This document shows, one piece after another, positions 4,444 through 35,322 of a stretch of 64,000 bases of DNA. The stretch spans positions 62,001-126,000 of the forward strand of contig JAHBVX010000003.1 in assembly GCA_019637295.1 (NCBI GenBank), in the 5' to 3' direction. Position 1 is the stretch's first letter. Each line of letters opens with the position of its first letter. The notes below the pieces were generated by a model, which made no database searches, was not told where the DNA came from, and saw only the letters and a program-made list of their open reading frames with translations. Source of the stretch: Polyangiaceae bacterium. GTDB lineage: Bacteria > Myxococcota_A > Polyangia > Polyangiales > Polyangiaceae. Made by a program: the position numbers and the translations under genes.

Positions 4444-6315
4444 ATGGAAGTCTCGTGCAGTAGCTGCCCCGCGCGCTACGCGATCCCCGACCAAAAGGTC
4501 CAGGGGCGCAAGGTTCGCCTCCAGTGCAAGCGGTGCGGAGCGGCGATCATCGTGGACGGTACTGCGGGCGCCGCTGTACCCGCCTCGGCTTCCCCGCCCG
4601 CCGCGAGCCAGCAGCCCACGGTGGCAGCCACGCCACCGGCGAAGGCCGCGGCCAGCCCCGCGCCCACGCCCGCGGCGGCCAGCCCCGCGCCCGCCGCGCC
4701 CAAACCCGCCGCGGCCAGCCCCGCGCCCACCGCGCCCAAACCCGCCGCGACCAGCCCTGCGCCCACGCCCGCCGCAGCCCCGCCCAAGCCCGCCGCGCCG
4801 AAGCCCACCCCGAGCACGCCCATCGCCGCCGGCGCGCTACCCGCGAAGACCACCGATTCCGCGCCGGTCAAGACCCCGGAGCCGCCCAAGCCCGAGCCCG
4901 CGCCTGCGGCGACCACCGGCTGGCGAGAGCCGGGGCGCGCCGCCGGGCCGACGGTAGCGGGCGCGGGAACTCCGGTCACGCGCAAGCAGATGCAGCGCAC
5001 CATCATCGGCGGCCTCACGGGCCCCGAGGGCTCGTTCGAGCCGATCACGAGCAGCGCAGTGACGGCCGCCGCGACCCCGGAGCCACCTCGCCCCACGTCG
5101 CCAGAGCCGCCTCGACCAGCGCCGAGCGCGACCGAAGCCGCGGCTCGCGCGCCGGCGCTGCGCGCCAAGCAGACCATGATCGGCTTTCCGGGGCTCGACA
5201 GCGGCCCGGCGCCCGAGCCCGCACCCGCGCCGGACGAGCGCGGCGAAGCGCCCGAGCCCGCCAAGCCGCTCGCTCCCATCGCCCCGGCCTCCACACCGCC
5301 CCCGGCGCTGCCTCGCCCGGGTGGGCGCGCCGAGTGGACGGTCGCGATCACCGACGACCACCAAGAAGAGCTGACCACCGCCGAGGTGATCGAGCTGTAC
5401 ATCCGCGGCGCCATCGACGCGGAGACGTACCTGTGGGCCGACGGCATGGGGGACTGGTCCCAGCCCTGGGACGTACCCGCCCTCGCCGCCGCCCTGCGCC
5501 TGCGCGGCCAAGTTCCGCCGGTGCCCGGCGGAGAGCCTCGCGACACCAGCAGCTTCCTGCTCGCGCACTCGAACGATTTCGGGGAAGACGAGCACACGGT
5601 CGTCGCGGACCTGATGGACTCGGTGCGGCGCGCGCCGACTGCTGGGCACTGGCACGAGCCGGGCAGCTGGGATGCGGCCCCTCCCGCGCTGGACGACGAT
5701 CGCGAGTTCGACGAGGTCACGGTGGCGACGGACGCGCCAACCGAGGAGTTCCTGCGTCAGCTGCGCGAACAACACAGTCCGCCAGACGCCGTCGACGATC
5801 TGCTCGACGACCCGCGCGCGAACATGGCGGAGGTGATGGCTCCCGCGCCGGCGCAGCCCTCGGCAGACCTCGGCTTCTACGACGACTCGGACGACACCAC
5901 CGAGATGCATCTCGGTCCGGACGCCAACGCGTCCCTCGCCGCGCTGCTGCAGCAAGCTCGGGATCAGGCCGCCCCCGCGCGCCCAGCGACGCCGGCCCCC
6001 GTGTCGCCCTTCGGCTCACCCCCCGCGGCGTTCGCCTCCCCGCCCGCCGCGGCCCTCGCCGCTCCGCCGACCGGACCAGCGCAGCACGCGGCGTTTCTGT
6101 CCCCCGGCCCGCCGCCGGCGGCGCCCCTCTCCGGCGCGGCGCCGTCGCTTCAGCCCGCGACCGCGCCGCGCAAGGGCAGCAGCGGCTGCTTGCTGGCGTT
6201 CGTCATCTTCGTCGTGATGCTGGGCGGTGCGCTGACGGCCAGCTACTTCACCGGCTTTCCGCCGGAGCTGTGGCGCCTTCCCTTCTGGCAAGAGCTCGGG
6301 CTGCCGCTGCGCTGA
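4444..6315 (+). CDS. Zinc-ribbon/GYF-domain membrane protein, GltJ (AgmX)-like but without TonB-like tail
   Basis: This 623-residue protein begins with an MJ0042-type zinc ribbon (C5, C8, C28, C31). A long Pro/Ala-rich linker follows, including near-identical SPAP..APKPAA units. A GYF_2-type domain sits at about residues 297-353 (from EWTVAI to AALRLRG, with the WADGMGDW core), then an acidic linker and a single membrane helix at about 582-605, with only about 18 residues after it. In Myxococcus the gliding-motility protein GltJ/AgmX has a zinc ribbon and GYF domain on the cytoplasmic side and a TonB-like domain outside. Here the outer part is missing. Divergent from the plsC-like gene, with 118 bp between. 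A polarity or motility role is inferred, not shown. Confidence 0.75.
   Translation: MEVSCSSCPARYAIPDQKVQGRKVRLQCKRCGAAIIVDGTAGAAVPASASPPAASQQPTVAATPPAKAAASPAPTPAAASPAPAAPKPAAASPAPTAPKPAATSPAPTPAAAPPKPAAPKPTPSTPIAAGALPAKTTDSAPVKTPEPPKPEPAPAATTGWREPGRAAGPTVAGAGTPVTRKQMQRTIIGGLTGPEGSFEPITSSAVTAAATPEPPRPTSPEPPRPAPSATEAAARAPALRAKQTMIGFPGLDSGPAPEPAPAPDERGEAPEPAKPLAPIAPASTPPPALPRPGGRAEWTVAITDDHQEELTTAEVIELYIRGAIDAETYLWADGMGDWSQPWDVPALAAALRLRGQVPPVPGGEPRDTSSFLLAHSNDFGEDEHTVVADLMDSVRRAPTAGHWHEPGSWDAAPPALDDDREFDEVTVATDAPTEEFLRQLREQHSPPDAVDDLLDDPRANMAEVMAPAPAQPSADLGFYDDSDDTTEMHLGPDANASLAALLQQARDQAAPARPATPAPVSPFGSPPAAFASPPAAALAAPPTGPAQHAAFLSPGPPPAAPLSGAAPSLQPATAPRKGSSGCLLAFVIFVVMLGGALTASYFTGFPPELWRLPFWQELGLPLR
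4655..4800. repeat. Imperfect Pro/Ala-coding repeat inside the zinc-ribbon/GYF gene
   Basis: Three or more imperfect copies of a unit of roughly 36-39 bp encode SPAP(T/A)xAAPKPAA-type segments. All are in frame, so changes in copy number would lengthen or shorten the linker between zinc ribbon and GYF domain without breaking the gene. Pure low-complexity drift is an equally good explanation. Confidence 0.6.
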
Positions 6316-6320
6316 GTCGC

Positions 6321-7934
6321 TCAGGGGCGGATGTTGACGAGCGTCCCCTGATCGAAGGTGTCGCCGGCGTAGGCCGCGTGCCAGTGCTCCGGCACCCCCG
6401 GGCTCGCCCACAGGAACGTGAAACGCGCGTCGATGGGAGCGACGTTGATGCAGCCGTGGGATCGCACCCGACCGAAGTCGTCGTGCCAGTACGCGCCATG
6501 CAGCGCGTAACCTCCTTTGAAGTACATGACCCAGGGGACGTCGCGCAGCTCGAACTCGTCGTCGGCGACGTCCGAGTCCATCGTGGTCGTCACGTGCTTC
6601 TGGTAGATCCGAAACGTGCCTTGCGGCGTGCTGAGCGTCTTGCCTGGTTCGCCCAGACCATCTCGACCGGTCGACACCAGCGTCGCGTAGACGGGGGTGT
6701 CACCCTCCCACAGCACCATGGTCTGGCTCACGATCCCGACGTCGATCCACTTCACGCCCTTCTTGGCCCAGGACGGGAGCCTGCGCGGCTTGGCCGCGAC
6801 CTTCAGGTCTTCGCTGCGCAGCCAGCGTCCGTTCTTCGCCTCCACCATGCGCACGCCGGTGATGTTGCGGACGTTGCCCGTGAGGGGAAGGAACTCGCGC
6901 CAGCCCAGGCGCTCGCCCCGCTCCAGCTTGCCGCCCTTGAGATCCCACCAGGTCGCACCGGCCTTGCGCGCGAAGGCGACCGGCAGCCCGACGTCGCGGA
7001 TCGGCGTCCCATGAAAGGGCGAACCGGAGTCGGCCTTGAGCTTGTCCGCCGGCAGCAGGCGTCCGTCGGTGCTGATGGCGAAGCGCCGCCCGTCCGCCTC
7101 GGGCCCCGCCACGAACGTCCCGATCAGCGCGACCCCGGCCTTGCGCTTCACTCGCCCCGCGATCACTGCGTAGGGTGGCGCGCGGAAGCTCGAGATGTTC
7201 GGGATCCGTCGCTCGCCTTGGAGCCACCAGGGCACCGCGTCGTTGCCGTCGCCACCGAAGCGCACGCTCTGGTCCATGGGCTTGGCGTGCTCGGGGATGG
7301 CGCCGATCGCGTAGCCGTGCTCGTCCAGCGGCACGTCGTTGGCTCCCACGTCGAGGGCGTCCCACTGGTCTCGCAACTTGGTCCAGTTCCTCAGGTGTCG
7401 CTCGAGCCGCATCTCGTACTGGAACTGCTCGGCCTTGGTCGGCACTCGCAGGTAGTTCGGCGCGATGGCGCGCACGAAAGCGTAGCGGTACGGCATGGGC
7501 CACGCCTGGTTGGGCTCGGCGCGGATCGCGCGCGCGATCGGGTGATCCAGCTTGAGCGTGGCGTCGTTGCCGGCACACACGAAGCCCACGGGCCGGATCG
7601 CGTACCAGCCGCCCGCGCAGTCGCGGTGACTGACGGGCTCCTTGGAGCGGGCGATGGTCGAGCCCACCCGCAGATAGCCGACCGCCGGCGTCAGCTTGTC
7701 CGGCTTGCCGTACACCGGCGTCACCATCGCGATGGGCGCGAGCTTGGGGTTGTCCTCGGGCGGCACGGGGATGTGGGACCAATCGTCGCGCTCGACCTCC
7801 GAGCCGCCGTTCTCGGCCTTCAACTTGGCGCTCGCGGGCGCGTCTTCACCGAGCAGCTCGGCCGCGGAGTTGCACCCGGCGACGCCGAGCAGCCCTGCGG
7901 TGAGCGCACACCAGAGCTGGGGCACACGAGTCAT
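6321..7934 (-). CDS. L,D-transpeptidase (YkuD) lipoprotein
   Basis: The C-terminal part carries the YkuD catalytic signature: a histidine in ALHGAYWHDDFG followed by SHGCIN, with the nucleophile at C495. These enzymes form 3-3 peptidoglycan cross-links or attach proteins to peptidoglycan in the periplasm. I chose the ATG at 7934 rather than a TTG six codons upstream because it gives a clean lipoprotein signal peptide ending LLGVAGC (C21). The mature protein is unusually long (537 residues before processing). Its first 300 or so residues have no motif I recognise and may be substrate-binding or SH3-like. It ends 5 bp from the convergent zinc-ribbon/GYF gene. Confidence 0.88.
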   Translation of the reverse strand: MTRVPQLWCALTAGLLGVAGCNSAAELLGEDAPASAKLKAENGGSEVERDDWSHIPVPPEDNPKLAPIAMVTPVYGKPDKLTPAVGYLRVGSTIARSKEPVSHRDCAGGWYAIRPVGFVCAGNDATLKLDHPIARAIRAEPNQAWPMPYRYAFVRAIAPNYLRVPTKAEQFQYEMRLERHLRNWTKLRDQWDALDVGANDVPLDEHGYAIGAIPEHAKPMDQSVRFGGDGNDAVPWWLQGERRIPNISSFRAPPYAVIAGRVKRKAGVALIGTFVAGPEADGRRFAISTDGRLLPADKLKADSGSPFHGTPIRDVGLPVAFARKAGATWWDLKGGKLERGERLGWREFLPLTGNVRNITGVRMVEAKNGRWLRSEDLKVAAKPRRLPSWAKKGVKWIDVGIVSQTMVLWEGDTPVYATLVSTGRDGLGEPGKTLSTPQGTFRIYQKHVTTTMDSDVADDEFELRDVPWVMYFKGGYALHGAYWHDDFGRVRSHGCINVAPIDARFTFLWASPGVPEHWHAAYAGDTFDQGTLVNIRP

Positions 7935-33348: not shown

Positions 33349-34486
33349 ATGCGCAAGGCGATGCTCGCTGCCGCCGTGGTGGGACTGGTCGGCTGCGGGC
33401 TCGACACCGAGGCGGCACAGCGGGAGGGAACGGACGCCAGCGCGACGGTCGGGGGCAGCGGCGGCGTGAGCACCACGGACGCGAGCTGGCAGACCGGCGG
33501 CATACCGGCGGCGCGGGCAGCGTGCCGGGCGGCGGGCGGCGGCGCGGTCGTGGCGCCGCAGGCGCGGCGGCGCGGTCAGCGCCGGCGGCACCGGCGGCGG
33601 CGGGCCCACGGAAGACTGCGCGAACGGCAAGGACGACGACGCCGACGGCTTGGTGGACTGCGCCGACTCGGACTGCGTCGGGACGCACCTCTGCGTTCCC
33701 GACACTCCGGGCGGGTGGACGGGACCGATCGTCGTCGCGCTCGGCAACGTTGCCGCTCCGACCTGCCCCGCCGATTTCCCGGACCAGGCGCTGGTGGGTG
33801 GCGTACTGGCCACTCCCCAGCCGGCGCTGACCTGCCCGACCTGCGCGTGCGACGCGAGCGCCGCCACGTGCGGCGATCCCAAGGTGACCAGCTACGGCAG
33901 CAGCAACTGTGGGTCGCAGGCCCGGACCAACCACACCTTCACGGGCTGCCAAGCGTTCTCCCCCGGCAGCGACCAGAGCTCGTTCAAGCTCGAGCTTGGC
34001 GCCGCCGGCGGCATGTGCGCGGCCCAGTCGACGGGCGCGATGTCCAAGCCACCCCTGGCCTTCACCACCCACATCCTCGGCTGCGCCGCGGGGACCCAGG
34101 GCGCGGGCTGCGGCGCGGGGGCAAAGTGCACTCGGCGGCCCCCCGCTGGGTTCGGGCGGGTGTGCCTGCATCGCACCGGCAACCACGCGTGCACCACGGG
34201 CTGGACCGAAAAGACCCTGCTGTCGGCGAACGTGGTGGACACCCGCAGCTGCACGCCCTGCGGGTGCGGCGCGGTCACGTGCTCGGCCACGGCCACTGCC
34301 TACGACGACTCCGCATGTGTCACCGCGCTGGGCAAGACCCTCAGCGCCCCGGGCTGCGCGGTGCTCGACTCCGCCGAGAACACCTTCAGCGTGGTGACTA
34401 CGAAGTCGAGCTCTTGTCCGCCGACTGGCGGGACCGTGACCGGCGCCATCAGCGGCACCGAGACCACGCTCTGCTGCCGCCCCTGA
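33349..34486 (+). pseudogene. Cys-rich lipoprotein gene with frame loss in the Gly-rich linker
   Basis: The start is convincing: MRKAMLAAAVVGLVGC is a lipoprotein signal, followed by an acidic and Gly-rich linker as far as about 33505. The mature domain is also convincing but lies in another frame: EDCANGKDDDADGLVDC near 33615-33656 (a motif common in myxobacterial surface proteins), then a domain of about 270 residues with many cysteines ending TTLCCRP at 34486. Between about 33505 and 33600 the Gly-coding pattern jumps frames at least twice, with no stop codon. Either replication slippage has inactivated the gene or the GC-rich tract carries sequence errors. No function is recognised. Confidence 0.75.
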
Positions 34487-34501: not shown

Positions 34502-34673
34502 CTACAGCGGCTTTCCAGTGCATGGAACAGCAGCGGCGCGGGGTTGGGGACCCCGCGCGGGGTGTGGGGCGACAGCCCCACCGGGAACTTACGGCGGGGC
34601 CGGCGCCGGCTGCTCCCCGGTCGCGTCAGTCGCAGGGCACACGCAGGTTACGACCCAATGAAAGCCGCTGTAG
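34502..34673. mobile_element. MITE-like element with perfect 14-bp terminal inverted repeats
   Basis: CTACAGCGGCTTTC at 34502-34515 is repeated as its exact complement at 34660-34673, enclosing 172 bp without coding sequence. Inside are two strong hairpins: 8 bp GCGCGGGG/CCCCGCGC (34536-34558) and 6 bp TGGGGC/GCCCCA (34565-34580). Size, terminal repeats and lack of genes fit a miniature inverted-repeat element. GG flanks both ends, but no convincing longer target duplication is seen. It ends one base before a possible engB start codon. Confidence 0.65.
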
Positions 34674-34683
34674 GGTGGCGGCG

Positions 34684-35322
34684 GTGAGCGCCAGCCCGTC
34701 CCCCCGTGTCGTCCAGGCTCGCTTCGTCGCAGCCGCCCGCGAGATCCCGTCGTTGCCGCCTCCGGTCACCCTCGAGGTCGCCTTCGCGGGCCGCAGCAAC
34801 GTGGGCAAGAGCAGCCTGCTCAACTGCCTGATGGAGCGCCAGAACCTGGTGCGGACCAGCTCGACGCCGGGCTGTACGCGGCAGATCGGGTTCTACGAAG
34901 CGACCGTCGATGACCGACGCCTCCTGCATCTGGTGGATCTGCCTGGCTATGGTTACGCCAAGCGCTCCAAGACGGAGCGCGCCGCCTGGGCCAAGCTGCT
35001 CGATCACTACTTCGTGCAGCGCCCCAGCTTGATGCTCGTGGTGCTGCTGATCGACGTGCGTCGGGGCATCGAGAGCGAGGACCAGGAGCTGCTCGATCTG
35101 GTGGCGTCCGTCGAGCAGCGACGCGTCAGGCCGCTGCCGGTGGTCGTGGTAGCCACCAAGCTGGACAAGCTGAGTCGCGCGGCCCAGAAACCGGCGCTCG
35201 CCAAGCTCGAGCAGCGCGTCGGGCGCAAGCTGCTGGGCTTCAGCGCCAAAGACGCCACCGGCCGGCAGGCGCTGCTCACCGCGATCTTGAAGTCCGCCTT
35301 CGCGACGCCCGCGGAGCCATGA
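34684..35322 (+). CDS. engB: Ribosome biogenesis GTPase EngB (YihA/YsxC)
   Basis: GTPase motifs are all present: G1 GRSNVGKSS, G2 region TSSTPGCT, G3 DLPGYGYA, G4 TKLD and a SAKD G5. With 212 residues it matches EngB, an essential GTPase for assembly of the large ribosomal subunit. I chose GTG 34684, with AGGGTGG upstream; GTG 34675 is also in frame. Either way the translation start abuts the right end of the MITE-like element, which therefore supplies the leader of this essential gene. It is convergent with the next gene. Confidence 0.93.
   Translation: MSASPSPRVVQARFVAAAREIPSLPPPVTLEVAFAGRSNVGKSSLLNCLMERQNLVRTSSTPGCTRQIGFYEATVDDRRLLHLVDLPGYGYAKRSKTERAAWAKLLDHYFVQRPSLMLVVLLIDVRRGIESEDQELLDLVASVEQRRVRPLPVVVVATKLDKLSRAAQKPALAKLEQRVGRKLLGFSAKDATGRQALLTAILKSAFATPAEP

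Follow-up and report, generated by a model that had tools for sequence, protein, structure and literature searches.

Upstream of engB (ysxC) in a genome of the Polyangiaceae, a short non-coding element with inverted ends stands directly before the start codon, which raises the question of what this element is and how engB can be expressed with it in that place. The window, meaning the whole stretch of DNA that was analysed, comprises 64,000 nucleotides and belongs to a genome (G000) of 7.65 Mb in 25 contigs that is 98.5% complete. An earlier note, made from the letters of the window, described a MITE-like element with perfect 14-bp ends and two internal hairpins that forms the leader of engB, supplies or replaces its ribosome-binding region and may be a mobile regulator of translation or transcription. 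The reading that we consider likely keeps the mobile element and places it elsewhere relative to the transcript: an IS630-derived MITE family would have inserted into the TA of the -10 boxes of leaderless promoters, engB would be transcribed from a hybrid promoter, and the element would not be part of the mRNA.

The element upstream of engB

The downstream gene had been named correctly, as its product matches TIGR03598 with 178 bits against a cut-off of 124. The likely start is the GTG at 34684, which lies 11 bp 3' of the element, and another in-frame GTG (34675) lies at 2 bp. Upstream, a cysteine-rich ORF located between murJ and engB gave no NCBIfam match. The positions of all features are collected in Table 1.

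The inverted ends CTACAGCGGCTTTC (34502-34515) and GAAAGCCGCTGTAG (34660-34673) are 100% complementary over 14 nt and lie where the earlier note had placed them, and the two internal hairpins that it described are real. Other copies carry T or C at the outermost left position and mostly G or A at the outermost right one, so that the terminal C and G found here probably belong to the flanking target C-TA-G. The perfect inverted ends measure 13 bp with the TA and 11 bp without it. The whole element strand folds better than shuffled sequences (z -3.1). It is short, has no coding capacity and is bordered by terminal inverted repeats, as is expected of a MITE.

Table 1. Positions of the element, its parts and the neighbouring genes in the window
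Feature	Position	Strand	Remark
Cys-rich ORF	33650..34486	+	no family
MITE copy with its two TA target copies	34503..34672	+	limits common to full-length copies
Left terminal inverted repeat TACAGCGGCTTTC	34503..34515	+	TA is the probable target duplication; the adjoining subterminal region matches the IS630-type element in L168
Element proper, CAGCGGC...GCCGCTG, without the TAs	34505-34670		166 bp
Hairpin GCGCGGGGT / ACCCCGCGC	34536..34558	+
Hairpin GTGGGGC-GACA-GCCCCAC	34564..34581	+
-35-like hexamer TTACGA	34648..34653	+	17 nt 5' of the terminal TA; from PWM, weak evidence
Right terminal inverted repeat TACAGCGGCTTTC	34660..34672	-	gene-facing; reads GAAAGCCGCTGTA on the + strand
-10 box TAGGGT	34671..34676	+	the element's terminal TA plus flank GGGT; TANNNT, 7-nt spacer to GTG
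engB/ysxC	34684..35322	+	likely leaderless, GTG start; TIGR03598

Copies, parent family and target

The genome holds about nine full-length copies of the element with 87-97% identity and about seven fragments, which amounts to some 16 places. The copies are dispersed, have fixed ends and are intergenic; one solo end lies in L089. The 14-mer end has seven exact matches in the 7.65 Mb, compared with none for a reversed control, which far exceeds chance. For the 13-mer end there are 14 matches in this genome and none in the same-genus genome G001. In each of 182 further genomes from the order, the 13-mer has three matches at most, which is chance level, and a search of these genomes found the element in none of them. 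Exact patterns of both ends gave no match in 85k species genomes (among which G000 is perhaps not included). Because the 13-mer is this rare and matches to both ends are missing elsewhere, the family is, within the genomes searched, limited to a narrow lineage.

Some neighbouring repeats were seen along with these copies. The solo left end in L089 (~501-523, 23 bp) adjoins an ORF that, judged by eye, resembles DUF222/HNH proteins. Truncated copies in L074 (~5980-6026) and L079 (~6086-6350) adjoin another common motif, CTCGACYTGGGCAGTCTTGGCACGA, which is possibly a second repeat family that disrupted both of them. Matches in the same-family genome G024 were rejected as copies. Its contigs (L081-L088) carry many intergenic copies of a different repeat, roughly 300 bp long, and the hairpin block GGGGTTGGGGCCCCGCG..GGGGTCTGGGGCGAAGCCCCAG is the sole part that it has in common with the MITE. 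In addition, L080 of the window's own genome contains a similar hairpin core from which the MITE ends are missing. One hairpin module may, on these likenesses, be common to unrelated repeats.

The parent family was identified through another genome of the same family (G011), in which an IS630-type element of 1,037 bp is inserted in a kinase gene (L168:1397-2433). Its protein consists of DDE_3 and HTH_Tnp_IS630 and is encoded in two ORFs; the DDE_3 transposase is flanked by TACAGCGGCTCTCAGTGACATGGAAC and TACAGCGGTTCTCC, and the ends of the element, TACAGCGGCTCTC and TACAGCGGTTCTC, are near-identical to those of the MITE. Two MITE copies (L071 and L072) carry C instead of the middle T at the corresponding position of the end. 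The left subterminal regions of the MITE and this element match beyond chance (p=0.0005, with 26 bp closely alike), and the right subterminal regions gave no match beyond chance. At 44-45% identity, the transposases next in similarity are bordered by TAGAGCGG ends. The split of the L168 transposase into two ORFs falls at an A7 run on the coding strand and is possibly a case of programmed frameshifting.

In the window's own genome, a profile search for the DDE_3 transposase (PF13358) found none, and no autonomous copy was detected by end pattern (one mismatch), DDE_3 or the L168 transposase. The related transposases that the earlier note proposed to look for exist in the same-family genome G011 and were not found in G000. 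As the element encodes no DDE_3, it is an IS630 derivative and not an IS630 insertion sequence proper; it can be described as a new IS630-derived MITE family. The proposal of a MITE-like element is thereby upheld by copies, ends, target and parent family, and the absence of further copies, which the earlier note had named together with the absence of empty sites in relatives as refuting it, is contradicted by the approximately 16 places.

The target of the family is TA, with a probable duplication on insertion. TA stands at both element ends, and the duplication itself is read from the sister insertion sequence in L168. When that element is removed together with one TA, the two sides meet at C-TA-G and a kinase domain runs through the junction without a change of frame (a single-frame ORF of 112 aa); a separate frameshift lies about 20 codons beyond the junction. 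The flanks of the MITE are YTAR in 8 of the 9 copies for which both ends are known, compared with 16% of intergenic TAs (p=3e-6). Similarly, CTAG is cited as the preferred target of IS630 (PMC2170065). Joined MITE flanks gave no significant nucleotide alignment with the engB and rhomboid promoters of relatives, which are too diverged, so the empty site is deduced from position and not from sequence.

Leaderless promoters and the boxes at the element ends

A TANNNT motif about 12 bp before the start is the signature of leaderless genes (PMC3160421). In the window's genome, with background rates drawn from 864 kb (L127-L166 and the window), this motif forms a sharp peak 5-13 nt 5' of predicted starts, with 90 cases against about 2 per position elsewhere. 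An excess of T (-23) and G (-21) 5' of these boxes marks the -35 element. The Shine-Dalgarno signal is weak in genes with an upstream gap, being present in 90 of 490 compared with 70 in a control stretch. From these signals, leaderless genes look common in this lineage. The weakness of Shine-Dalgarno signals throughout the genome speaks against the claim that the element supplies the ribosome-binding region of engB, and a Shine-Dalgarno reading was dropped after weighing.

In 8 of the 15 copies, the terminal TA of the element and the adjoining flank together make a TANNNT box 5-13 nt 5' of a start codon. These are engB (TAGGGT-N7-GTG), a rhomboid gene (L067, TAGCCT-N9-GTG), L069 (TAGGCT-N5-ATG), an AMP-binding gene (L070, TAGTCT-N8-ATG), a HAMP gene (L075, TAGCCT-N6-ATG), L076 (TAACCT-N7-ATG), a transglutaminase gene (L077, TAACGT-N12-ATG) and a PilZ gene (L078, TAAGCT-N6-GTG). 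The box is formed with the right element end in five copies and with the left end in three. With permissive starts, the 8/15 compare with 9.3% of intergenic TAs genome-wide (p=2e-5), and with strict, fully automatic starts 5/15 compare with 6.1% (p=0.0015), the start codons being predicted in all these tests and the copies numbering 15. The fourth flank base is T at 9 of the 10 ends located within 21 nt of a start, at 3 of the 14 other ends and at 20% of intergenic TAs; this figure is partly post hoc, as position 6 was picked from the known -10 consensus yet spotted in these same flanks. The exceptions among the ten near-start ends are L071, which lacks the T (TAGAGC), and L072, which has a spacer of 17.

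The boxes look native and not made by the element, because they are also present in relatives that lack it. In the same-genus genome G001, the GTG start of engB falls on the same codon and is preceded by TATCTT-N6, and the rhomboid gene reads TAGGTT-N6-GTG. Including the window's own loci, a -10 box precedes engB at 5 of 13 loci (0.2 expected) and rhomboid at 5 of 13 (0.5 expected).

These observations suggest how the element could have come to lie before engB. A transposase-less relic of IS630 (Tc1/mariner superfamily) would have been moved in trans into TA, preferably within YTAR. In this GC-rich genome, intergenic TAs are scarce, and the TA that opens a TANNNT box is among the sites most frequently used. 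Insertion would copy the TA and leave its gene-facing copy next to the original NNNT, and this copying would preserve the -10 box. Everything 5' of the box, i.e. the -35 side, would be replaced by the element end, so that engB would have a hybrid promoter of element end and native TAGGGT. The re-formed box would be the one used, the element end would act as the -35 side, and expression may be affected. At -35 distance, the right end offers TTACGA and the left end TTCCAT, with TT at -23/-22 in both; these hexamers score in the top 3-4% of background with a PWM from this genome's TA-led promoters, and the whole 26-nt upstream region of the right end lies at the 45th percentile of background, which is ordinary.

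Judged from the spacing of TANNNT, transcription should begin at the GTG or immediately beside it. For this reason the element most likely lies 5' of the transcription start and replaces the old upstream half of the promoter, and the claim that it forms the leader of engB is probably wrong. The alternative, a 5' leader transcribed with engB that controls translation or mRNA stability through its hairpins (for example as an RNase III substrate), is very improbable. The hairpins are strong, most full-length copies have their right end towards the gene, and an RNase III-type role is known for some Correia elements; moreover, the upstream ORF is on the same strand and stops 16 bp 5' of the element, which makes possible a read-through transcript that contains the element and continues into engB. 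Against these points, the -10 box stands between the element and the start codon, and the copies in L076, L077 and L078 have lost most of the hairpins and are still found at -10 boxes. There are essentially no compensatory changes either: one both-side change was counted in 60 pairs, none of weight as a sign of a conserved RNA structure, and Rfam gave no match for the element, which does not have the marks of a cis-regulatory RNA or riboswitch.

Even less probable is a role of the element end in translation, in which ATGAAAGCCGCTGTA in the right end begins a short peptide that is coupled or fused to the downstream gene. An ATG is present in the right end of most copies, the engB mini-ORF MKAAVGWRR overlaps GTGA, the mini-ORF of L071 also stops exactly at a GTGA overlap, and in-frame fusions occur in L069, L070 and L072. 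Three such fusions are close to the chance expectation for the gene-facing ends, that ATG has no apparent ribosome-binding sequence 5' of it, and transcription would have to come from inside the element; the mini-ORF and fusion idea was rejected.

The more serious competitor of the hybrid promoter, although unlikely, is a plain MITE without a role, in which TA specificity and TA scarcity produce the boxes by chance and engB is expressed by read-through or from a weak promoter. The gaps hold few TAs (1-8), one of which is often the -10 box, the copies are decayed with no transposase left, and the fold shows no covariation. With uniform TA choice within the copies' own gaps, 4.3 of the 15 boxes would be expected compared with 8 observed (p=0.004). 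By this within-gap comparison, roughly half of the enrichment comes from the scarcity of TA, with targeting or selection accounting for the remainder. Among the four one-ended copies, three (L074, L075 and L076) retain the gene-facing end, which also argues against a plain MITE, small as these numbers are.

The hybrid promoter at engB can be extended to the whole family as a mobile promoter half, for which we see a tentative case. The TA-targeting MITE would have repeatedly entered leaderless -10 boxes, possibly through a preference for open promoter DNA, and placed at least eight unrelated genes (including those for engB, a rhomboid protease, an AMP-binding enzyme, a PilZ protein and a transglutaminase) under one upstream element. 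Because engB and other genes regain their -10 box through the element end, the transcriptional part of the proposed mobile regulator is plausible, and its translational part, acting through a leader, is not supported.

Related elements and meaning for this lineage

The family resembles the IS630 insertion sequences of the Tc1/mariner superfamily (L168, IS630 and ISY100) in its TA target, its YTAR/CTAG preference and its TACAG-type ends. It differs from them in that it measures 166 bp without a transposase gene, and none of IS630 type was found in the genome. The Correia repeat enclosed elements are comparable as TA-target MITEs of 100-170 bp with hairpins that lie 5' of genes. In the 'Black promoter' of Neisseria, a Correia element carries the -35 and a partial -10 that is completed by the flank (PMC2649163), and an element end that together with the flank gives a -10 box before genes is likewise found here. 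The sequences are unrelated, however, and in the present family only TA comes from the element, the remainder of the box seems to belong to the gene, and the genes are probably leaderless. By this comparison, the family probably works like the Correia promoter element without being a member of that family.

QMITE1 and QMITE2 of Coxiella measure 150-400 bp, and QMITE2 gives a -10 element at one small-RNA gene; these elements are reported to leave genes of known function unaffected at their 5' ends (PMC5896051). In contrast to the family described here, their direct repeats are 2-11 nt long with variable sequence and are not TA, and the pattern at the 5' ends of genes is the opposite.

The genome-wide -10 signal bears on the annotation of start codons in these bacteria. 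TA-targeting transposons could settle on essential leaderless promoters without being lethal, as the target duplication would repair the -10 box. Should the ends serve as promoter halves, a single element family would have rewired at least eight genes of one lineage.
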